A stretch of DNA of 64,000 nucleotides from Desulfovibrionaceae bacterium (lineage in GTDB: Bacteria > Desulfobacterota > Desulfovibrionia > Desulfovibrionales > Desulfovibrionaceae). The stretch spans positions 47,055 through 111,054 of the forward strand of contig JADFXV010000003.1 in NCBI GenBank assembly GCA_015233395.1. Reading direction: 5' to 3'. How positions within the stretch are numbered: position 1 is the first letter of the stretch; each line of letters begins with the position of its first letter. Of this stretch, positions 8,137-33,552 are shown piece after piece. Under the pieces are notes generated by a model, which saw only the letters and a program-made list of their open reading frames with translations, was not told the DNA's origin and did not search any database. The translations under genes and the position numbers were made by a program.

Positions 8137-9618
8137 TCACGCCGGCCCTGCCTGCCCGGCCGGCGCGGGCTTTCGCCAAAAGTTCTTGTCGACGAACAAC
8201 AGTTCGAAGCGGCCGCGAACGAGGCTCTTGAGCAGGCGGCCCAGGGTCAACAGGCAGCCGAAGGCTCCGGATTTCTTGTACATCGCCTTCCAGCGCCAGG
8301 GCGCGAGATAGATGCTGGCGAAGGCGTCGTTTTGCAGGGCGATCAAATCCTCGGGAGAAAAGCCGCCCACCTTCATGACCGCCGTATTGTACCGGCGGAA
8401 GGAGGCGAAATCCTTTTTGATGAGTTCAAGGCCGTGTTCCCCGGCCAGGGACATTTTGTAGAGCTCGGTGCCGGGATAGGGCACGGCGATGCTGATGTTG
8501 GCCTGCTTGATTCCCTTGGACCAGCGCAGGTACGACAGGGTGCGCTTGATGGAGTCCAGGGTTTCCCCGGGCAGGCCGATCATGCAGGAATTGAGCGTTT
8601 CGACGCCGTACTTGTTGGTCAGCTTGTTCGCCTTTTCGTAGGCCTCCAGGGGAACGCCCTTGCGCATGATCTCGCGCACGCGCGGATCGGCCGATTCCAG
8701 GCCAAACGAGATCCGGACCATGCCGGCGGCCGCCAGGGCGGCCACGATCTCTTCGTCCACCAGGTTGGCCCGGGTGCTGCCTTCGAAGGTGATGTCCAGA
8801 TTCTGCTCGACGATCTGGCGGCAGATCGAAAGGATATGGCCCTTGTCCAGGGTCAGGGTGTCGTCTAAAAACATGAAGTGGCGGGTGCCGAAGCGCTCAA
8901 CGACCCCTTTGATTTCCGCGATTACCTTGGCGGGCGAGCGTTTGCGCACCGTGCGGCCGAAGACGTCGGTGCTGCAGAAGATGCAGTGGAAAGGGCAGCC
9001 GCGCATTGTCATGATCGGGGTGAAGCGCTTGCGCCCGGTTTTCAGGGAGCCGAGCATGTATTTGTCCATGTGCAGCAGATGCCTGGCGGGCACGGGCAGG
9101 GAGTCGATGTCCGTGACCGGGTCGGCCTGGCCGGTGAACACGATCGCGCCGTCCTTGCGGTACATGATCCCCTTGACCCCGGCCGGTTCGCCCCCGGCGG
9201 CGAGGGTCTCAAGCAGGGCGGGAAAGGACTGTTCGGCCTCGCCGATGCAGGCGTAGTCGAAGCAGGGCGCGAAGGCTTCCTGTTTGAGGATGGTGATGTG
9301 CGGCCCGCCGAGCACCAGGGGGACGAGCGGGAAGCGCTCCTTGAACAGCTCGGCGCAGCGGCGCGCCACGTGGAAAAACGGGGTCGTCGCGGTCAGGCCG
9401 ATCGCGTCCGGGGCAAAAGCCTTCACCCGCCGGGCCACGGCCTCGTTGTCCAGGTTTTCGGCCTGGGCGTCGATGATCGCCGCTTCGTGGCCGCTCGCCT
9501 CCGCAATGGCCGCAAGCATGGCCAGATTGAGGGGCTGGTAGACCGCCCCGCGCTTGGCGAAAACGGAAAACAGGCCGTATTCGCCGGTCCATCTGGGAAA
9601 AACGAACAGGATTTTCAT
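8137..9618 (-). CDS. Cobalamin-binding-type radical SAM protein
   Basis: A 493-residue protein with an N-terminal B12-binding-like Rossmann domain (MKILFVFPRW..., LVLGGPHIT near residue 105) and a radical SAM barrel with CPFHCIFC (Cys208, Cys212, Cys215) that binds the [4Fe-4S] cluster. FGLESADPRVREIMRKG and IGLPGET follow, as in the P-methylase/BchE-like class. Such enzymes methylate or rearrange unreactive carbons. ATG 9618 is preferred over an upstream in-frame ATG because GAGGCGG precedes it. It is co-directional with the unknown paralogue downstream, which suggests a shared substrate, possibly a surface sugar or lipid. Confidence 0.9.
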   Translation of the reverse strand: MKILFVFPRWTGEYGLFSVFAKRGAVYQPLNLAMLAAIAEASGHEAAIIDAQAENLDNEAVARRVKAFAPDAIGLTATTPFFHVARRCAELFKERFPLVPLVLGGPHITILKQEAFAPCFDYACIGEAEQSFPALLETLAAGGEPAGVKGIMYRKDGAIVFTGQADPVTDIDSLPVPARHLLHMDKYMLGSLKTGRKRFTPIMTMRGCPFHCIFCSTDVFGRTVRKRSPAKVIAEIKGVVERFGTRHFMFLDDTLTLDKGHILSICRQIVEQNLDITFEGSTRANLVDEEIVAALAAAGMVRISFGLESADPRVREIMRKGVPLEAYEKANKLTNKYGVETLNSCMIGLPGETLDSIKRTLSYLRWSKGIKQANISIAVPYPGTELYKMSLAGEHGLELIKKDFASFRRYNTAVMKVGGFSPEDLIALQNDAFASIYLAPWRWKAMYKKSGAFGCLLTLGRLLKSLVRGRFELLFVDKNFWRKPAPAGQAGPA

Positions 9619-11646: not shown

Positions 11647-13218
11647 ATGAAAATTGTAATGATACAGATCGATCTAGTGCTCGGCTCTCGAATTTTGCTG
11701 AGTGTGCTTGGGCAAAGCGGCTACGAAGTCAAGTCGTTGCAGATAATCATAAAATATATAGATGCGTTGTCGAGTGAAGATCTGGAAATAATTTATGAGT
11801 ATGTTTCCGATGCCGATGTCGTCGGGCTGTCGTTCAATTCTTTTTATGCAGTCCAGGGGGAAATTTTATGCCGCTATATAAAGTCAAAATCATCGAAGCA
11901 TACGATTATTTGCGGTGGATATCACGCCACCGCAATGCCGGAAGCCGTCCTTGAGTATGCCGATATTGTCATTTTGTACGAGGCTGAAAAAGCGTTGCCC
12001 GCCGTCTTGGAATCGCTCGGCGATATGGCGGAGGTGGAGAAGATTCCCGGCGTCCTGACAAAAAATAAAAAAGGGAAACAATATCATTGTTCTCCCGAGA
12101 TCGTTTGGGATCTGGATTCGTTGCCGTTCCAATCGCTCGATACGGAAAAAATACAGTATTTTTCCAAAGAGAAAGGAATTTATACCCCCGATGTAACCAA
12201 TCTCTTCGTGGACAATGAAAAGCGATACATGATTCTTGGTTCTCGTGGATGTCCATTTTTTTGTACATACTGCTCCAATCATTTGTATCATTCTTTCGAC
12301 AAGCGAATATTGAAGGTACGCAAGAGGTCGGTCAAGAATATTGTCGATGAAATGAAGTGGGCGACGAAAATGGGCTTTGAATCGTTTTATATCGCCGACG
12401 ACAATTTTTTTTCGTTTCATATTGAAGAGATTGAAGAGTTTTGTAAATTATATGAAGATACAAAAAAGCCCTTCTCCGTCAGTGGTGTGAATCCGAACAA
12501 TTTCAGGGATAAAAAATCCGAAAAAAAATTACAGTTGTTGCTGGGTTGCGGCCTGTCGGACGTGCGGGTCGGGATTCAAAGCGGCAGCGACAAGACATTG
12601 AAACGTTTCAATCGAGGTTATAAAGCAGCCGAATTGGCCGACTTGCTGCGGCCGATCGACGCGCATCGCGATACGATTTTCCCCGCTCCTCGGGACAAGT
12701 TGCATGTCGCTCTCGACTTTATTTGCGACTCTCCCTGGGAAAACACGGAGGATAAACAGGCGACCGTCAGATTGGCGAATACGGTTCTTAAGCAATTCAC
12801 GATATTTTTTTACACGCTCATTTATCTTCCGGGAACGAAATTGTATCTCGATGCGCTTGAGAGCGGCCAGATCACGGATCATGTGAAAGAGATCTTCCAT
12901 AGGGGAATTGCCGGAGTCGAAGATAATCCGACAAATCGCTTGTTGTTTTTGGTCGGGATACTGAAAGAGCGCGGACTATCTATCGACGATGAAGTGTTGG
13001 AGCATCTTTTTGATTTGTCATTTGCCGATGAAAAGCTATTCGTATCGATAGTGGATAATATGATTTCCATTGTAAATGGCGTCGAAAGCCATCATCATGT
13101 GGATCTGAAGCACGGCGCCATTCATCCGTATCTGACGGGATTCAATGCGTGGACGAAGCAGACCGGAGAAATTGGCAAAAAAGTTCTTTTCAGAAGTTAT
13201 CATCAGCCCTACGGCTAG
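11647..13218 (+). CDS. Cobalamin-binding-type radical SAM protein, AT-rich
   Basis: A 523-residue protein with an N-terminal B12-binding-like domain (VVGLSFNSFYA, IICGGYHATAMPE) and the cluster motif CPFFCTYC (Cys202, Cys206, Cys209). GIQSGSDKTLKRFNRG follows in the barrel. Codon use is strongly AT-biased compared with all neighbours (many AAA, ATA and TTT codons), so it was probably acquired separately. It lies 33 bases after unknown paralogue 2. Substrate unknown. Confidence 0.9.
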   Translation: MKIVMIQIDLVLGSRILLSVLGQSGYEVKSLQIIIKYIDALSSEDLEIIYEYVSDADVVGLSFNSFYAVQGEILCRYIKSKSSKHTIICGGYHATAMPEAVLEYADIVILYEAEKALPAVLESLGDMAEVEKIPGVLTKNKKGKQYHCSPEIVWDLDSLPFQSLDTEKIQYFSKEKGIYTPDVTNLFVDNEKRYMILGSRGCPFFCTYCSNHLYHSFDKRILKVRKRSVKNIVDEMKWATKMGFESFYIADDNFFSFHIEEIEEFCKLYEDTKKPFSVSGVNPNNFRDKKSEKKLQLLLGCGLSDVRVGIQSGSDKTLKRFNRGYKAAELADLLRPIDAHRDTIFPAPRDKLHVALDFICDSPWENTEDKQATVRLANTVLKQFTIFFYTLIYLPGTKLYLDALESGQITDHVKEIFHRGIAGVEDNPTNRLLFLVGILKERGLSIDDEVLEHLFDLSFADEKLFVSIVDNMISIVNGVESHHHVDLKHGAIHPYLTGFNAWTKQTGEIGKKVLFRSYHQPYG

Positions 13219-16847: not shown

Positions 16848-18736
16848 ACATTCTGCTCGTCGCGCCCCGCTATACGGCGTACATGTATCCGCTGGGCATC
16901 GCCTACGTCTGTTCCGCTCTCAAGGCGGCCGGGCATGAGGTGCACGGGCTCAATCTCGCCCTGGAGGACGATCCGTTGGCCGCCGTGGAGCGGGCGGTCA
17001 AGGCCGTGCGGCCTCAGGCGCTCGGGGTGGGCGGGCTGACGCCGGTTTTCGGCCAGATCAGGGACATCCTGGCTGCGGCCAGGCGCGTCGATCCCGGTAT
17101 CGTCACCGTGCTTGGCGGCGGGGCGCTCACGAGCGAGCCGGAACTCATTTTTCAGGCTTCGGGCGCGGATTACGGCGTGTTCGGCGAGGGGGAAGTCACG
17201 GCAACGGAGTTGATCCGGGCCATCGAGGCCGGGCAGGACCCGGGCGGCGTGGAAGGGATCGTGCATCGAACGCGCGGCGGCCGGCCGGTTTTCACGGCGA
17301 AGCGCCGGCCGGCGCCGGAGCTGGACTTGCTGCCTTTCCCGGATTTCGAGGCCTTCGGCCTGCGCGAGAGCCTGGCCGGATTGACCGGCGACGTGTCGAT
17401 TATCGCCAGCCGGGGCTGTCCTTTCAATTGCACGTTTTGCTATAACGTGCTCGGCCGCCACAGCCACCGGATGCGTTCGATGGACAATCTGTTCGCCGAG
17501 ATCGATTGCCTGCTGTCCAAGTACGACGTCAAAACCCTGGGCCTGGTCGACGAGCTTTTCGCCGCCAAACCGGCGCGCGTGCACGAGTTTTGCGAGAGGA
17601 TCAAGCCCTACGGGGTCCGCTGGCATACCCAGCTGCGGGTGGATTCGGTGGACGAGGGAGCCATCGAAGCCATGCGCGAGGCCGGCTGCTACCACGTGCA
17701 GTACGGCCTGGAGAGCATGAGCCCGGCCGTGCTCGCCAGCATGGGCAAGAAGATCACCCCGCGCCAGATCGTCGCCGCTTTGGAGCTCACCCACAAAAAA
17801 GGGACCGAGGCTTACGGCGCGTTCATTTTCGGCGATCCGGCGGAGACCCTGGCGAGCATCGACGAAACCGTGGGCTGGTGGCTGGCCAACCGGCGCTATT
17901 CGATCCATCTCGCGCCGATCATCTGCTGGCCGGGTTCGAAAAATTACCTCGCGGCCGTGGAAAAAGGCCTGATCAAGGACAAGCTCGCCTTCATCGAGGC
18001 CGGCTGTCCGCCGGTCAACCTCACCGGCCTGGACGATGCGGTCTACCACAGGGTGGTCGCCCTGCTGCTCATCGCCAGCGAGACGCTGCTTTTGCCCGCC
18101 AAGCTGGTCGAGGCGGCCGCCAAAGCGCCGTACGTCTACGACATCGCCTGCCGGTGCCCGCATTGCGCGGGCATGGCCCGGTTCGACGCGGTGAGCGCGC
18201 GCGCCATTCCGCTCGGCCGCATCGCCGCCCACCTCAATTGCCCGGAGTGCGGGCTGCCGATGGATATTCCCCTGCCTATGCAACCGGCCGGGCCGGGGCC
18301 CGAGGCCTTGCCGAGGCTTCGCGCGGCCGAAGAAGGCGCCGGGGCGCCAGGCGGCGACGCGGAGCGCGCCGAGAGGCTCAAGGACTTGACGCGCGAATTC
18401 CCGGACTGGGCGGGGGCCTGGCACGCCCTGGGCCTGACCCGCCTGCGCCTTGGCATGCAAGACCATGCCTTCGAGGCCCTGCGCCAGGCCGTGCGCAACA
18501 ATCCCTTTGAGCCGGCCTATCTGGCGTCGTTTGCCGGGCTGCTTGCCGATTTGGGCTTTGGCGTGTTCGCCAGGGCGTTTGACGAGCAGGCGGCGATCGT
18601 GTCCCTGGCCACGCGGGCGGTGTCCGGGGCGCCGGGCGGCGGCGAGGACCACGCCCGCGCGGCCGCGATTCTTCAGTCGGTGGGCATCGCCTGGGGGCCG
18701 GGCGAGGAGCCGTCCCGCGACCCGGACAAGGCGTAG
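16844..18736 (+). CDS. Cobalamin-binding-type radical SAM protein with zinc-ribbon and TPR-like tail
   Basis: A 630-residue protein. The N-terminal B12-binding-like domain has VTVLGGGALTSEPE, and the radical SAM motif is CPFNCTFC (Cys192, Cys196, Cys199), with YGLESMSPAVLASMGK in the barrel. After the barrel come a CPHC...CPEC pair (about residues 440-475), likely a zinc ribbon, and a C-terminal segment resembling tetratricopeptide helices (WAGAWHALGLTRLRLG, AFEALRQAV). Start ATG overlaps the sialidase-like stop. Its 3' end overlaps the convergent gene at 18673 by 64 bases. Confidence 0.88.
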   Translation: MNILLVAPRYTAYMYPLGIAYVCSALKAAGHEVHGLNLALEDDPLAAVERAVKAVRPQALGVGGLTPVFGQIRDILAAARRVDPGIVTVLGGGALTSEPELIFQASGADYGVFGEGEVTATELIRAIEAGQDPGGVEGIVHRTRGGRPVFTAKRRPAPELDLLPFPDFEAFGLRESLAGLTGDVSIIASRGCPFNCTFCYNVLGRHSHRMRSMDNLFAEIDCLLSKYDVKTLGLVDELFAAKPARVHEFCERIKPYGVRWHTQLRVDSVDEGAIEAMREAGCYHVQYGLESMSPAVLASMGKKITPRQIVAALELTHKKGTEAYGAFIFGDPAETLASIDETVGWWLANRRYSIHLAPIICWPGSKNYLAAVEKGLIKDKLAFIEAGCPPVNLTGLDDAVYHRVVALLLIASETLLLPAKLVEAAAKAPYVYDIACRCPHCAGMARFDAVSARAIPLGRIAAHLNCPECGLPMDIPLPMQPAGPGPEALPRLRAAEEGAGAPGGDAERAERLKDLTREFPDWAGAWHALGLTRLRLGMQDHAFEALRQAVRNNPFEPAYLASFAGLLADLGFGVFARAFDEQAAIVSLATRAVSGAPGGGEDHARAAAILQSVGIAWGPGEEPSRDPDKA

Positions 18737-20214
18737 CCTTCCACCGGTTCGGCGTGCAGCCGGGGCAGGCGTTTTTCGGTCATGCGCATGATGTGCCGGA
18801 CCGCATCCATGCCGAAGGCGCGCCGGATCATGTCCAGATAGCGCGGATTGGCGTGGTAGGCGTGGAAGGCGTAGTCTCTAAACGCCAGGACCTGCCCGCC
18901 GCTCAAATGCCCGGTCGGCAGCGGCAGGGTTTCGTAAGCGTACTGCGAATAGCCGAGCCAGGTTTCCGGCAGAGGCAGGTTTTTCTCCAGCGCCTCCTCA
19001 TAGAGCTTCGAGCCCGGATAGGCCATGGCGCAGTAAATGTTGGCCCATTGCGCGTTGATGCGCAGCATCGATTCCAGGGTCTGCTCCATGGAGTCGTAGT
19101 CTTCGGTGGGCAGGCCGAAAATGAAATTGGCGCAGATGTTCAGGCCGTGGGCGTAGGTTTTGGCCACCACCGCGTCCACGCTTCCCGGGTCGTAGCCCTT
19201 GGAGGCGTTTTTTAGGACCCGCTCGCTGCCGGACTCGAACCCGTACGCCACCCAGTTGATCCCGCAGCGCTTCATGGATTCGAGCATCCGGTCGGTCACC
19301 GTGTTCACCCGGGCGTAGGCCCACATGTTCAGGTCGTAGCCGCGCGCGGCGATGGCGTCGCACAGCGTGGTCACCCGGCGCTCGTTGACGGCGAACATCT
19401 CGTCGATGATCTTGATGTGCCGGATACCGTGGCGCTCCACCAGATAATCGATCTCATGGAGCACGTTGTCCACGCCGCGCAGCCGGATGCCCGGTTTGCC
19501 GAACAGGCTGTTGATGCAGCAGAAATTGCAACGGTAGGGGCAGCCGAGGCTGGTGTAGAGCAGTCCGTACGGCTGGCGATGCTCGATGTCGCCGAAACAG
19601 TGCCAGTTGTGCGCCCGGTACGCTTTCATGGGGAACAGGTCCCAGGCGGGCATCGGCAGCCGGTCGAGATCCGGTAGCGTCGCCGGGCGGGGGCCGCTTA
19701 CGACCGCCTTGCCCTGGCGGCGCCACAGGCCGTCGATGGGCGCCAAGGCGCGGGCCTTGCCGCGCAGGGCGTCGAGCAGCGCGGGCAGGGTGATAAAGCC
19801 TTCGCCCTGGCAGACGAAGTCGCAGTCCTCTTCCGTCATGGTGCGCCCCGGCAGCGCGCTCGGATGCAGGCCCATGAGCAGGCTTTTGAGCTGCGGGGCG
19901 AGTTCGCGCAGGCGGCTTACGATCGCGCCCGCCCCGGGCATGTTCATGGTCGAGGCCGAAGGGTTGGTGCCGGAGACGACCACCGCCGCGAGCAGCGGCC
20001 CCGCGTCGCTTACGGCCTTTGCGGTTTGCTCCGGGCTTAAGTTTTCGGCTTCGGCGTCGAGCACCGCCACGCTGTAGCCCTTGGCGCGCAGGAATCCGGC
20101 CAGAAGCGCCGGCCACAGCGGCGGCTCGATGGCCGTGAGGTCGAAAGACGAGAGCTCGCCGTATACCTGGCGCTGGCTGCCGGGTTTGACCAGGATGATG
20201 TCGAGGGCGCTCAT
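18673..20214 (-). CDS. Cobalamin-binding-type radical SAM protein
   Basis: A 513-residue protein with an N-terminal B12-binding-like domain and the cluster motif CPYRCNFC (Cys225, Cys229, Cys232). IKIIDEMFAVNERR and YGFESGSERVLKNASKG are typical of the BchE/P-methylase-like class. It is the last gene of the seven-gene minus-strand sugar operon, 31 bases after the DegT-family gene, so it may methylate or rearrange the sugar made there. The C terminus overlaps the convergent radical SAM gene. Confidence 0.9.
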   Translation of the reverse strand: MSALDIILVKPGSQRQVYGELSSFDLTAIEPPLWPALLAGFLRAKGYSVAVLDAEAENLSPEQTAKAVSDAGPLLAAVVVSGTNPSASTMNMPGAGAIVSRLRELAPQLKSLLMGLHPSALPGRTMTEEDCDFVCQGEGFITLPALLDALRGKARALAPIDGLWRRQGKAVVSGPRPATLPDLDRLPMPAWDLFPMKAYRAHNWHCFGDIEHRQPYGLLYTSLGCPYRCNFCCINSLFGKPGIRLRGVDNVLHEIDYLVERHGIRHIKIIDEMFAVNERRVTTLCDAIAARGYDLNMWAYARVNTVTDRMLESMKRCGINWVAYGFESGSERVLKNASKGYDPGSVDAVVAKTYAHGLNICANFIFGLPTEDYDSMEQTLESMLRINAQWANIYCAMAYPGSKLYEEALEKNLPLPETWLGYSQYAYETLPLPTGHLSGGQVLAFRDYAFHAYHANPRYLDMIRRAFGMDAVRHIMRMTEKRLPRLHAEPVEGYALSGSRDGSSPGPQAMPTD

Positions 20215-30143: not shown

Positions 30144-30171
30144 TTGCCTGGCCGAAAAAAAAGAGTATACT
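30144..30171 (+). promoter_or_regulatory. Sigma-70-type promoter of the CHAP-repeat locus
   Basis: TTGCCT (30144-30149) and TATACT (30166-30171) are separated by 16 bases. Transcription would begin near 30178, leaving a short leader before ATG 30225. It is the best promoter seen in the window, in an unusually A-rich stretch. Confidence 0.6.
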
Positions 30172-30224
30172 GCTCCCAAGTCGCCGAGGGCCTTGCTTAC
30201 GGCAGCGCCGCGAGGAAAACAAGC

Positions 30225-32234
30225 ATGCGGGTATCGTTCGTTTTTCCGCCTTTTTATCTGGAATCGCTCTACAATCTGCCGCCGCTCGGGCTGATTTCGC
30301 TGGCCACGGCGCTTGGCGAGGACGGCGCCGACTGCCGCATCCACGACTTTGTCCTGGAACTGCGCGAGGCGACGATTCCCATGGGACCCGGCGTCTACGA
30401 AGCCTGCGCCCGGAGGGTACTGGAGGCGGCTCCCGACCTGGCCGCGTTTTCGGCGCAGTGCGCCACCTATCCGGCGGTGCTGCGCATCGCCGAGATCGTC
30501 AAGCGCGAGAACCCGGACGTGACCGTGCTTCTGGGCGGCCACAACGCCTCGTTCGTCGACCGGGCCACGCTGGACAATTTTTCCTTCATCGACATGGTCG
30601 CGCGCGGCGAGGGCGAGGCCACCATGCGCGAGCTTGCGCGGACCATGCAGGACGGGGAGGACCTCGCCGGCGTGGCCGGGCTGACGTTCAGGCGCGGCGG
30701 CGAGATCGTCGCCAACCCCGACCGCGAGCTGATCGCCGATCTGGACTCGCTGCCCAGGCCCGATTACGGCTACGCCGCGCCGCTTGAACGCTACAAAGCG
30801 GCCTGCGGCCTGCCCCGCGCCATCGCCATTTTGGACATCGGCCGGGGCTGTCCGCACGCCTGCGTGTATTGTTCGGAATCGGCCCTGTGGCGCAGGCGCT
30901 GCCGCACCTACTCCGTCGAGCGCATCGTCTCCGAGATGCGCCGTTTGCGCGACGTCTGCGGGGCCGAGTATTTCCTTTTGTCCTACGACCAGTTCACCGC
31001 CAACCGCGGCTTCGTGACCCGCTTTTGCGAACGGGTCATCGACGAAGGGCTTGAGGATACCCCCTGGTACTGCATTTCGCGGCTGGACACGGTGGACGAC
31101 GAGCTGTTGTCGCTGATGAACCGGGCCGGTTGCGACTCGATGTGCTACGGCATCGATTCCGGGTCAAAGCGCACGCTGGCCTTCATCAACAAGCGCATCG
31201 ACCAGGACATCCTGCTTGACCGGGTGCGCGCCACCACGGACAACGGCATGCACCCGACCCTGAGCTTCATCGTCGGGTTTCCCGAGGAGCAGCGCGCGGA
31301 CATCGACGCCACGCTCGAACTGGCCTTGCGCTGCGGCTTGCTTGGCAACGTCAGCCCGCTCATCCAGCTGCCCACGGTCCTGCCCGGCTCCGGGCTGCAC
31401 GCGATGTTCGCGCGCGACCTGGTGCGCGAGGTGGACACCTATTTCGCCCTGGGCCTGGAATTTGACCAGGGCCGGCGCCTGGCCGGGGACGAGGCCCTGA
31501 TCGCTTCGGACCCGGCCATGTTTTCGAGCTTCTACAATCTGCCCTGCCGGGCCGCGCCGCTGCGCGAGTTGGCCAAAGCAGCCGAAATTTTTCCCCTGAT
31601 AGTATCTTTTTTCCCCAAATCGTATTATCTCCTGTGCCAAGCTCTGGCCGCCTCGCCTTTCGTCTTGTTCCTGGAGTTGGCCGCGCACGCGGCCAAGGCG
31701 AGCGGCCGGGAGCGTTTCGATCTGGACGCGCCGCGGCTGCGGCGGCGCTTCCCGGCCTTTGTCCGGGACGCGTTCACGGCGGCCGCGCCCGAGGGTTTTG
31801 CGCATCTGGCCGACGTGTTGCGCTACGAACTGCGCTGCCTGGACGCGGCCGGACCCGGGGCGCCCGGGAGCGCGTATCCGCAAGGCGGCGCGGGCGGCCC
31901 CGGGCTCGCCGGGGGGGTGATCGTGGACGTTTTCGACTACGACCTGCCCAGGATCATTGAGGATCTGCGGGACGGGATCGTGAACGCGAACTACCCGGAA
32001 GCGGTGTCGAGGCTTGTTTTTGAACACCGCGACGGACAGCTCGAGGTCAGCGAGGTCAACGCCTTTGGGAACGATTTCCTGGCGTTGTGCGACGGATCGA
32101 CCACCGTGGGGCAGATCGCCCGGGCGATGTACGCCAGCCACGGCGGCGGCATGGAGTTCGCCGGATTCGTCGAGGAATGCGAGCGGGCGGCGCGGATGTT
32201 CGCATCCATGCGCATCGTAAGCCCCGCTGCATAA
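30225..32234 (+). CDS. Cobalamin-binding-type radical SAM maturase with C-terminal PqqD-like domain
   Basis: A 669-residue protein. The N-terminal B12-binding-like domain has VTVLLGGHNASF, without the D-x-H-x-x-G base-off motif. The radical SAM motif is CPHACVYC (Cys209, Cys213, Cys216), with YGIDSGSKRTLAFINK and FIVGFPEEQ in the barrel. After an Ala/Gly/Pro-rich linker (about residues 545-565) the last ~100 residues resemble PqqD: RLVFEHRDGQLEVSEVN, FLALCDGSTTVGQIARAM and a terminal helix. PqqD-like domains bind leader peptides of ribosomal precursors. ATG 30225 follows GAGGAAAA. The repeat peptide starts 24 bases downstream, so it is the likely substrate. Confidence 0.9.
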   Translation: MRVSFVFPPFYLESLYNLPPLGLISLATALGEDGADCRIHDFVLELREATIPMGPGVYEACARRVLEAAPDLAAFSAQCATYPAVLRIAEIVKRENPDVTVLLGGHNASFVDRATLDNFSFIDMVARGEGEATMRELARTMQDGEDLAGVAGLTFRRGGEIVANPDRELIADLDSLPRPDYGYAAPLERYKAACGLPRAIAILDIGRGCPHACVYCSESALWRRRCRTYSVERIVSEMRRLRDVCGAEYFLLSYDQFTANRGFVTRFCERVIDEGLEDTPWYCISRLDTVDDELLSLMNRAGCDSMCYGIDSGSKRTLAFINKRIDQDILLDRVRATTDNGMHPTLSFIVGFPEEQRADIDATLELALRCGLLGNVSPLIQLPTVLPGSGLHAMFARDLVREVDTYFALGLEFDQGRRLAGDEALIASDPAMFSSFYNLPCRAAPLRELAKAAEIFPLIVSFFPKSYYLLCQALAASPFVLFLELAAHAAKASGRERFDLDAPRLRRRFPAFVRDAFTAAAPEGFAHLADVLRYELRCLDAAGPGAPGSAYPQGGAGGPGLAGGVIVDVFDYDLPRIIEDLRDGIVNANYPEAVSRLVFEHRDGQLEVSEVNAFGNDFLALCDGSTTVGQIARAMYASHGGGMEFAGFVEECERAARMFASMRIVSPAA

Positions 32235-32258
32235 ACCTGTAACTTGGAGGATACCGTG

Positions 32259-32504
32259 ATGTTGGAAATTCGCCGTGTTGAAAAGAAAGCCTCGCGCGCG
32301 GCCGCCTGCCACGCGCCTTCGTGCCATGCCCCGGCCTGCCATGCCCCGGCCTGCCATGCGCCCGCGTGCCATGCGCCCGCGTGCCACGCCCCGGCTTGCC
32401 ACGCCCCGCTTCAGGCCGCCTGCCACGCTCCGGCCTGCCATGCTCCCGCCTGCCACGCGCCCGCGTGCCATGCTCCGGCCTGCCATGCGCCGGTCAACTG
32501 CTAG
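32259..32504 (+). CDS. CHAP-repeat peptide, candidate RiPP precursor
   Basis: An 81-residue peptide. A short basic leader-like segment (residues 1-15: MLEIRRVEKKASRAA) precedes seven pentads (six ACHAP and one SCHAP; Cys17-Cys47), a short LQA break, five more ACHAP pentads (Cys55-Cys75) and a final VNC (Cys81). That gives 13 Cys and 12 His, every His directly after a Cys. TTGGAGG lies 8 bases before ATG 32259; GTG 32256 is a weaker start. It sits between a PqqD-tailed radical SAM gene and an OvoA-type methyltransferase gene. All three frames are open because of the repeat, but only this frame has the ribosome site and the Cys/His content expected of a modified peptide. A metal-binding peptide is the alternative. 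Confidence 0.88.
   Translation: MLEIRRVEKKASRAAACHAPSCHAPACHAPACHAPACHAPACHAPACHAPLQAACHAPACHAPACHAPACHAPACHAPVNC
32304..32492 (+). repeat. 15-bp tandem repeat encoding ACHAP pentads
   Basis: Twelve 15-bp units in two blocks (seven and five) separated by nine bases. Units differ mostly at third codon positions (CAC/CAT, GCC/GCG/GCT, CCG/CCC/CCT), while the peptide is nearly invariant. This indicates selection on the peptide. Confidence 0.9.
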
Positions 32505-32541
32505 TCGCTCCGGAGAGTGACCGCAAACCCGCCCGCCTCGC

Positions 32542-32575
32542 GAATGGTTGGGTTTTCCTAAAAACCCAACCATTC
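32542..32575 (+). promoter_or_regulatory. Perfect 15-bp hairpin between precursor and methyltransferase
   Basis: GAATGGTTGGGTTTT and its exact complement are separated by a 4-base CCTA loop. No T run follows, so it is not a classic terminator. It may protect the 3' end of the precursor transcript or attenuate the downstream gene. Confidence 0.7.
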
Positions 32576-32613
32576 AGGCCGGCGGCCGGCCTCGTTTGAA
32601 GGAATTTTCCCCG

Positions 32614-33552
32614 ATGCTCACGCGCTTGCTGGAGATTTTGGTCTGCCCTGCCTGCCTGCCCCGGGAAATCGGACTGGAACTGTCGGTTTTCGAGCAACAG
32701 GGCGACGACGTCGCCTTGGGGCGGCTTGACTGTCCGGCCTGCGGCCAGGCCTATCCCATCGAGGACGGGCTGGCCTCGCTGCTGCCTCCCCAGGGACACG
32801 CGCCGGACGCGCAGTCCAAATACGAACAGCCCCGGGTGACGGCCTCCTATCTCTGGAGCCACTTCGCCGACCTGCGCGCCGCGCCGGAATCCACGGCGGC
32901 GCACGAGGCTTTGGCGGCCATGTTTCCCCAGGCGCGGGCGGAAAACGAACTGGCGCTCGATGCGGGCTGCGCCGTGGGCCGGATGGCCTTCGAGCTCGCC
33001 GCCAAGGGGTATTTCGCCGTGGGCCTGGATTTGTCCCGGGCTTTCGCCGTCGCGGCCCGGGACCTGGCGCGCCTGCGCAGGCTGGACTACGACGAACCCG
33101 TCGAGGGCGAGATCACCGTGGGGCGCACCGTCGCCCTGCCGGAGCGCTTCCCGCCCGGCCGGGCGGAATTCATCCAGGCGAGCGTGCTCGCGCCGCCGTT
33201 TCGGGCGGGCGTCTTTGCGGCCCTGGCCTCCTGCAATATTCTCGACAAGGTGCCCGAACCCTTAAGCCATCTGCTTGAACTGTCCCGGCTGGCCGCACCC
33301 GGCGCGGCCCTGGTTTTCGCCGACCCCTTCTCCTGGTCCGAGGACTGCGCCCCGAAACACCGCTGGCTGGGCGGCACGGCCTCCGCAACCTACGACTGCC
33401 GGGGCATCGTCAATGTCGGCGCCATCCTCTCGGGTCAGGGCTGGCGCGTCGACCGGGACGGTTTTGTCTGGTGGAAAATAAGAAATCACGAAAACCACTA
33501 CGAACTCATCCGCAGCCTGACCCTGCGGGCCACGAAACAAGACGCTTCGTAA
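32614..33552 (+). CDS. SAM methyltransferase resembling the OvoA C-terminal domain, with Trm112-like zinc knuckle
   Basis: A 312-residue protein. The N terminus has Cys11-P-A-Cys14 and Cys40-P-A-Cys43, a Trm112-like zinc site. The SAM loop is DAGCAVG (Asp116-Gly122). The rest follows the OvoA C-terminal (4-mercaptohistidine N1-methyltransferase) pattern as I recall it: an S-R-F...YDEPVEGEI segment (residues 141-167), CNILDKVPEP (207-216), DPFSWSED...RWLGG (237-254) and an IRNHE-like end. OvoA methylates 5-thiohistidine in ovothiol synthesis. Placement after a Cys-His repeat peptide suggests methylation of modified His residues. ATG 32614 follows GAAGGA. The OvoA resemblance rests on remembered motifs. 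Confidence 0.85.
   Translation: MLTRLLEILVCPACLPREIGLELSVFEQQGDDVALGRLDCPACGQAYPIEDGLASLLPPQGHAPDAQSKYEQPRVTASYLWSHFADLRAAPESTAAHEALAAMFPQARAENELALDAGCAVGRMAFELAAKGYFAVGLDLSRAFAVAARDLARLRRLDYDEPVEGEITVGRTVALPERFPPGRAEFIQASVLAPPFRAGVFAALASCNILDKVPEPLSHLLELSRLAAPGAALVFADPFSWSEDCAPKHRWLGGTASATYDCRGIVNVGAILSGQGWRVDRDGFVWWKIRNHENHYELIRSLTLRATKQDAS

Follow-up and report, generated by a model that had tools for sequence, protein, structure and literature searches.

Three adjacent genes on the + strand of a 64,000-nt stretch of Desulfovibrionaceae bacterium contig JADFXV010000003.1 (hereafter the window; the genome comprises 3.37 Mb and is 98.9% complete) encode, in this order, a B12-binding radical S-adenosylmethionine (SAM) enzyme, a small peptide built of Cys-His-Ala-Pro (CHAP) pentads, and a methyltransferase (operon 30144-33552), and very probably form a pathway for a ribosomally synthesized and post-translationally modified peptide (RiPP). 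The explanation that best accounts for the whole, to which we assign a probability of about 0.42 from comparison of sequences, is that a predicted RiPP recognition element (RRE) of the enzyme would grip the conserved leader of the peptide, that the enzyme would act along the repeats and modify their Cys-His pairs, and that the methyltransferase, a relative of OvoM and OvsM, would then N-methylate the modified histidines; in many relatives, a neighbouring dipeptidase may help release the modified unit. One clade of relatives is predicted to make, through UGA, a peptide that ends in selenocysteine (Sec)-His-Ala-Pro, and we class the system as a putative new RiPP family that switches between cysteine and selenocysteine.

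The enzyme (669 residues; 30225..32234, ATG at 30225) combines a B12-binding domain (residues 15-137, 30267..30635; PF02310, E 1.5e-15) with a radical SAM domain (residues 205-367, 30837..31325; PF04055, E 6.5e-22), the CxxxCxxC cluster motif of which (C209, C213, and C216; 30849..30872) is invariant among 30 aligned relatives. An earlier sequence-only reading of the window had named a radical SAM protein, an 81-residue peptide of twelve pentads, and a methyltransferase, and open reading frames and domain matches bear out all three genes at the positions given here. That reading had also placed a PqqD-like domain at the C-terminus of the enzyme; a fold check of this domain (approximately residues 556-669, 31890..32231) predicted an RRE fold, as the claim would lead one to expect, and profile matches point the same way, with 43 of 46 C-terminal pieces matching ApyI (NF050149) and a match to PqqD that is sub-threshold (E 0.019).

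The precursor gene (32259..32504) encodes 81 residues, including 13 Cys and 12 His, which are arranged as a 15-residue leader that contains VEKK and is conserved among 26 aligned peptides (32259..32303), seven pentads (32304..32408), a three-residue spacer (LQA), five further pentads (32418..32492), and a terminal VNC. Across the 12 units, all differences in the Cys, His, Ala, and Pro codons are synonymous and the sole replacement is Ala to Ser in the residue preceding Cys, which points to constraint at the protein level. When the genome of the window was searched for two adjacent CH(A/G)P units, all 10 matches fell within this array. Loci of related enzymes in other genomes (n = 47) were collected by a single contig scan with an enzyme alignment, the enzyme alone serving as query; by record title, these are mostly deltaproteobacterial (Desulfuromonas, Geobacter, Desulfobacterales, Syntrophobacteraceae, Solidesulfovibrio, and others), the remaining titles being one Pseudomonadota and one uncultured bacterium. 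A precursor adjoins the enzyme gene in 44 of the 47 loci (31 Cys-type and 13 Sec-type) by counting rules that are lax, as a threshold of at least 6 Cys misses short and Sec-type precursors. Cys-type peptides, found no more than 350 nt downstream in 31 loci, carry 4 to 9 CH(A/G/S)P units behind an MLKIKKVEKK-like leader; the peptide of L054 is among the short natural ones. Geobacter metallireducens RCH3 likewise has an annotated homologue of the radical SAM gene (P0052). Together with the predicted RRE fold, this recurrence of a same-leader peptide beside the enzyme supports the RiPP reading well; the expected co-occurrence of the enzyme with Cys-His repeat peptides holds as to pairing and needs widening as to the peptide, since 13 of the 44 precursors are or include the Sec-type form.

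Closer to the window, the enzyme (E 1e-100 or better) is present in 4 of 199 genomes of the window's own family, the window's genome included, and all four carry a CHAP or CHGP peptide. In a phylum sample of 395 genomes, the peptide profile matched 15, with the peptide beside the enzyme in 13; the weak matches in the other two (L096, L097, and L100, in genomes G492 and G189) are not enzyme-adjacent and were left outside the adjacency counts. L097 is an ICHTP pentad repeat with no radical SAM enzyme within its 3-kb locus, and in the same genome, G189, the methyltransferase adjoins a dipeptidase (L124). Queried with one CHAP peptide, a collection of approximately 5.8 billion proteins yielded 2 relatives; CHAP precursors are thus nearly absent from protein collections, and annotation-based mining would overlook the family. 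One of the two (P0241) carries W at the position of a TGA in L048, and a pipeline therefore seems to have translated that TGA as Trp.

The Sec-type precursors (L032, L034, L035, L037, L039, L041-L044, L046, and L050-L052; n = 13) consist of a leader like that of the Cys-type peptides, an in-frame TGA, His-Ala-Pro (HAP), T or S, E or Q, SPVRR, and TAA or TAG. With the TGA read through, two other accounts of these loci were rejected, namely that they lack a peptide or that they have Tyr-containing substrates. The sequences after the TGA include 12 distinct ones among 13 (L039 and L046 are identical), and the HAP codons of all 13 differ at third positions only, synonymously, so coding appears conserved beyond the UGA; by comparison, HAP follows none of the eight CHAP genes that end in TGA. 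In all 13 loci, a 6-bp stem, (A/G)TCTCC-GGAGAT, with a 5-nt loop starts 17 nt downstream of the first TGA base. SelB exceeds its cut-off in 12 of the 13 Sec-type genomes versus 2 of 14 control genomes, with SelB fragments only in G533 (L043), and each of the five Sec-type genomes examined encodes a protein of the formate-dehydrogenase type in which TGA occupies the Sec position (three of them over the family cut-off). L034 encodes both kinds of peptide behind a single enzyme gene, its CHAP peptide having five units. In a tree of 46 enzymes, which omits the fragments L053 and L055, the 13 Sec-type loci form one clade and the Sec form requires a single change. Three Sec-type precursors compared with NCBIfam matched no model. 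At L029 (4480-4530), the enzyme frame enters the SPVRR tail and stem-loop of a decayed Sec-type precursor, the leader and TGA of which are lost; within the L012 enzyme gene, one further match to TGA-HAP was set aside as chance.

The third gene encodes a methyltransferase of 312 residues (32614..33552, ATG at 32614), which by its sequence is clearly homologous to OvoA-type 5-thiohistidine N-methyltransferases. Its closest solved relatives are OvsM, which acts on 5-selenohistidine, OvoA, and OvoM, which acts on 5-thiohistidine (profile E 2e-33, 1.2e-30, and 1.6e-28, respectively). It differs from OvoM, OvsM, and the OvoA C-terminal domain in an added N-terminal Trm112-like domain (PF03966, 38.6 bits against a cut-off of 22) and in its place in a peptide operon. 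Counting loci with at least 1400 nt downstream, a linked methyltransferase was found in 21 of 29 Cys-type loci (window included) versus 0 of 11 Sec-type loci. In each of the 13 Sec-type genomes, a single copy lies beyond the fetched flank (a partial match in G528), and such unlinked copies are followed by what, by eye, resembles an inositol-monophosphatase/CysQ-type gene (L143, L144, L145, L147, and L149-L154). Among ten Cys-type genomes without a linked methyltransferase, two have an unlinked copy. The 395-genome sample contains the methyltransferase in 45 genomes, namely all 13 in which a peptide adjoins the enzyme and 32 of the 382 others; the methyltransferase is associated with the peptide system, neither exclusively nor universally. 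Of the 45 places, 30 were fetched, and of these, six have peptide and enzyme (window included) and two lie at contig edges, adjoining a dipeptidase.

Genes that may act on the modified peptide recur around the related loci. Among loci whose downstream flank spans 2600 nt or more, 12 of 25 of the Cys type and all 10 of the Sec type have an M19 dipeptidase downstream. A pyridoxal 5'-phosphate (PLP) enzyme, a SufS/EgtE-like aminotransferase of class V that scores below every curated cut-off, lies near 10 of the 47 loci on the opposite strand (1.3-2.3 kb downstream in 9 of the 10), and an M3 peptidase lies near 5 of 47; roles in cleavage and release are conceivable for both. Fisher tests of linkage in Cys- versus Sec-type loci, which ignore relatedness, gave P values of 3e-5 for the methyltransferase and 0.005 for the M19 dipeptidase; as the Sec form is one clade, these values provide no independent support. 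The single M19 dipeptidase of the window's genome was rejected as part of the operon, being located elsewhere and sharing 29% identity over 217 residues with the operon type. Dipeptidase, M3 peptidase, and PLP enzyme fit a small-molecule product at least as well as they fit a mature chelating peptide.

With regard to chemistry, chalcogen-His-x-Pro is common to both forms of the peptide, and the modified unit is thus probably the dyad of Cys or Sec with His. Replacement of Cys by Sec suggests a reactive or functional role for the chalcogen itself, and the kinship of the methyltransferase to 5-thio/5-selenohistidine enzymes suggests attachment of S or Se to His. Since 5-thio- and 5-selenohistidine are the residues on which the nearest methyltransferases of solved structure act, we tentatively favour, at somewhat better than one chance in three, a radical enzyme that would link S or Se to the neighbouring imidazole and yield 5-thio- or 5-selenohistidine-type side chains. 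Joining neighbouring Cys (or Sec) and His in this way would give, without oxygen, the peptide counterpart of the intermediate made by OvoA, which couples free Cys and His ahead of a lyase step and N-methylation (PMC12631010). The classic OvoA route was rejected for the window, as the OvoA sulfoxide synthase model (TIGR04344) has no match in its genome; a route through a multinuclear non-heme iron-dependent oxidative enzyme (MNIO; PF05114) was likewise rejected, with no match in that genome. A doubtful extension is that anaerobes without OvoA possess an oxygen-independent, ribosomally templated factory for ovothiol/ovoselenol-type compounds, in which the B12-radical SAM enzyme would cross-link S or Se to imidazole in a multi-copy Cys-His or single Sec-His peptide, M3 and M19 peptidases would cut the product, a SufS/EgtE-type PLP lyase would split it, and the OvoM/OvsM-like enzyme would add the N-methyl group, sulfur or selenium being chosen at the codon level; if true, anaerobes would make ovothiol/ovoselenol-type antioxidants without OvoA.

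Several observations weigh against RRE-guided modification of Cys-His pairs followed by N-methylation. We know of no radical SAM enzyme that forms an S-imidazole bond. The methyltransferase reaches E 1.5e-24 and 86.9 bits against TIGR04345, the OvoA C-terminal family, the cut-off of which is 170 bits, and we thus term it a relative rather than a member; the OvoA-like label of the sequence-only reading holds as to kinship and falls short of family membership. Genome-wide, the methyltransferase is absent from 8 of the 10 Cys-type genomes that lack a linked copy, including six that are Geobacteraceae-like, and in 15 of the 30 fetched methyltransferase loci (14 by motif and L139 by eye) it adjoins a molybdopterin oxidoreductase. 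Enzyme relatives with no peptide nearby, which the sequence-only reading had named as a refuting observation, do occur: the downstream scan found no peptide in three of the 47 enzyme loci, namely L029, L026, where the contig stops 90 nt past the enzyme gene, and L012, which has none across 1747 nt downstream. The operon of the window itself lacks the M19, PLP, and M3 genes. As for the Sec form, the fold energy of its stem-loop is ordinary (z < -1.9 in 2 of 12, L039 being omitted as identical to L046), a loose stem test is also passed by 4 of 8 control CHAP stops and 161 of 2508 other TGAs, and Rfam gave no match to a selenocysteine insertion sequence (SECIS) in L041, the one locus tried. Finally, the nearest characterised enzyme, ApyD, is described as C-methylating Tyr (beta-methylation), alongside an MNIO and a cytochrome P450 (PMC10635010).

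This last point underlies the alternative that deserves most weight, a serious rival to the S/Se-imidazole bond and one that we rate at roughly one chance in three, by which the enzyme would simply C-methylate His (or Cys) in each repeat, the methyltransferase would add an N-methyl group, and the mature peptide would be a metal-binding or redox thiol polymer. ApyD (NF050148) is the best NCBIfam match of the enzyme at 264.7 bits, and solved-structure relatives by sequence include the B12 methyltransferases TokK and CysS and tryptophan C2-methyltransferase. However, the score lies below the ApyD cut-off of 750, and C-methylation alone leaves unexplained both the kinship of the methyltransferase to 5-thio/5-selenohistidine enzymes and the switch from Cys to Sec.

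Much less probable is that (Cys/Sec)-His-(Ala/Gly/Ser)-Pro copies the metal-ligand loop of formate dehydrogenase, the peptide holding or delivering metal or cofactor for molybdenum or tungsten enzymes. A 2026 review of prokaryotic selenoproteins lists UHxP twice as a Sec motif, for formate and formylmethanofuran dehydrogenases, and UHAP nowhere (PMC13188914), and a formate-dehydrogenase-like protein (L108, in the genome of L044) that scores below the TIGR01553 cut-off carries ARTUHAPTVAGL, in which UHAPT recurs as in some Sec-type precursors. The molybdopterin oxidoreductases that adjoin the methyltransferase (L113, L114, L118, L121, L122, L125, L127, L128, L130-L132, L134, L135, L139, and L141) carry VCRLCSSCCP and GSVC(H/F)VAR motifs and occur in genomes outside the peptide system. 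By contrast, the other four Sec-site motifs examined are UHSA or UHSS, no molybdopterin oxidoreductase is among the families listed as conserved neighbours of the 47 peptide loci, and, in a weakly resolved tree, the 15 molybdopterin-linked methyltransferases fall in one 19-row branch apart from the peptide-operon copies.

Still less credit goes to the view that translation of the 13 Sec-type precursors simply ends at the TGA, with the HAP accidental and the short leader-only peptides decayed precursors. The unremarkable stem energies, the permissive stem test, and the missing SECIS match suit it, as do confinement of the 13 loci to a single clade and the decay seen in L029; against it stand the synonymous-only HAP, SPVRR, and TAA or TAG that follow every one of these TGAs, the lack of HAP behind TGA-ending CHAP genes, and the SelB and formate-dehydrogenase-type proteins of the same genomes. 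Least probable of all is an enzymatically unmodified Cys-His peptide for metal storage or redox, with an enzyme that is merely co-operonic, for while Cys-His repeats could bind metal unaided, the predicted RRE fold, the conserved leader, and the pairing in 44 of 47 loci speak against it.

RiPPs with RRE-bearing B12-radical SAM enzymes, Cys-repeat precursors, and a seleno-RiPP are already known kinds. Aminopyruvatide biosynthesis by ApyD/ApyI likewise applies a B12-radical SAM enzyme with an RRE to a RiPP precursor, but the target of ApyD is Tyr, with an MNIO and a P450 alongside (PMC10635010), whereas the precursor here is a Cys-His repeat. In selenobacteriocin (TIGR04081), another RiPP precursor that contains Sec and is associated with radical SAM chemistry, the review tabulates an SGUG motif with 2 Sec (PMC13188914), as compared to a single Sec in UHAP here. 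CefA (NF038108), a RiPP peptide with Cys at every fifth position, shares the Cys spacing, and 26 of 26 peptides match its model at E 1 or better (best 2e-4); membership was nevertheless rejected on score, as the window peptide reaches 18.1 bits and the best of the 26 approximately 21 bits against a cut-off of 30. Across the class, the CefA model matched 14 of 149 genomes, the window's own not among them. TglI (TglHI, of the 3-thiaglutamate pathway) serves an MNIO; the corresponding domain here is fused to the radical SAM enzyme. In NCBIfam and in the literature on CHAP/CefA, thiohistidine, RiPPs, ovoselenol/OvsM, and seleno-RiPPs, subscription literature being mostly outside the scope, no equivalent system was found. 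If the proposed pathway is correct, a RiPP family that swaps S for Se in its precursor under the same maturation enzyme would constitute a natural experiment on the role of the chalcogen. In a genome that has no OvoA match, the operon also connects kin of the 5-thio/5-selenohistidine methyltransferases with a radical SAM enzyme, which makes an anaerobic route to thiohistidines a testable question.

Upstream of the enzyme gene, a consensus scan identified a promoter-like site (TTGCCT, 16 nt, TATACT; 30144..30171, + strand) with 9 of 12 consensus bases, one such site being found versus 0.2 (sd 0.5) in shuffled regions; the promoter that the sequence-only reading had reported is thus present as a site, and its role as a promoter is suggestive only. 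A stem-loop with a 15-bp stem occupies the gap between the peptide and methyltransferase genes (32542..32575, + strand), and stems of at least 9 bp occur no more than 110 nt from the stop in 22 of 31 CHAP genes examined (window in, L010 out) versus 40 of 400 random windows. Rfam gave no match on the operon besides one nearby tRNA. Elsewhere in the window, distant matches to the B12-radical SAM enzyme, with 27-30% identity, lie at 8449-9444 (-), 11869-12837 (+), 16889-17875 (+), and 19051-19959 (-).

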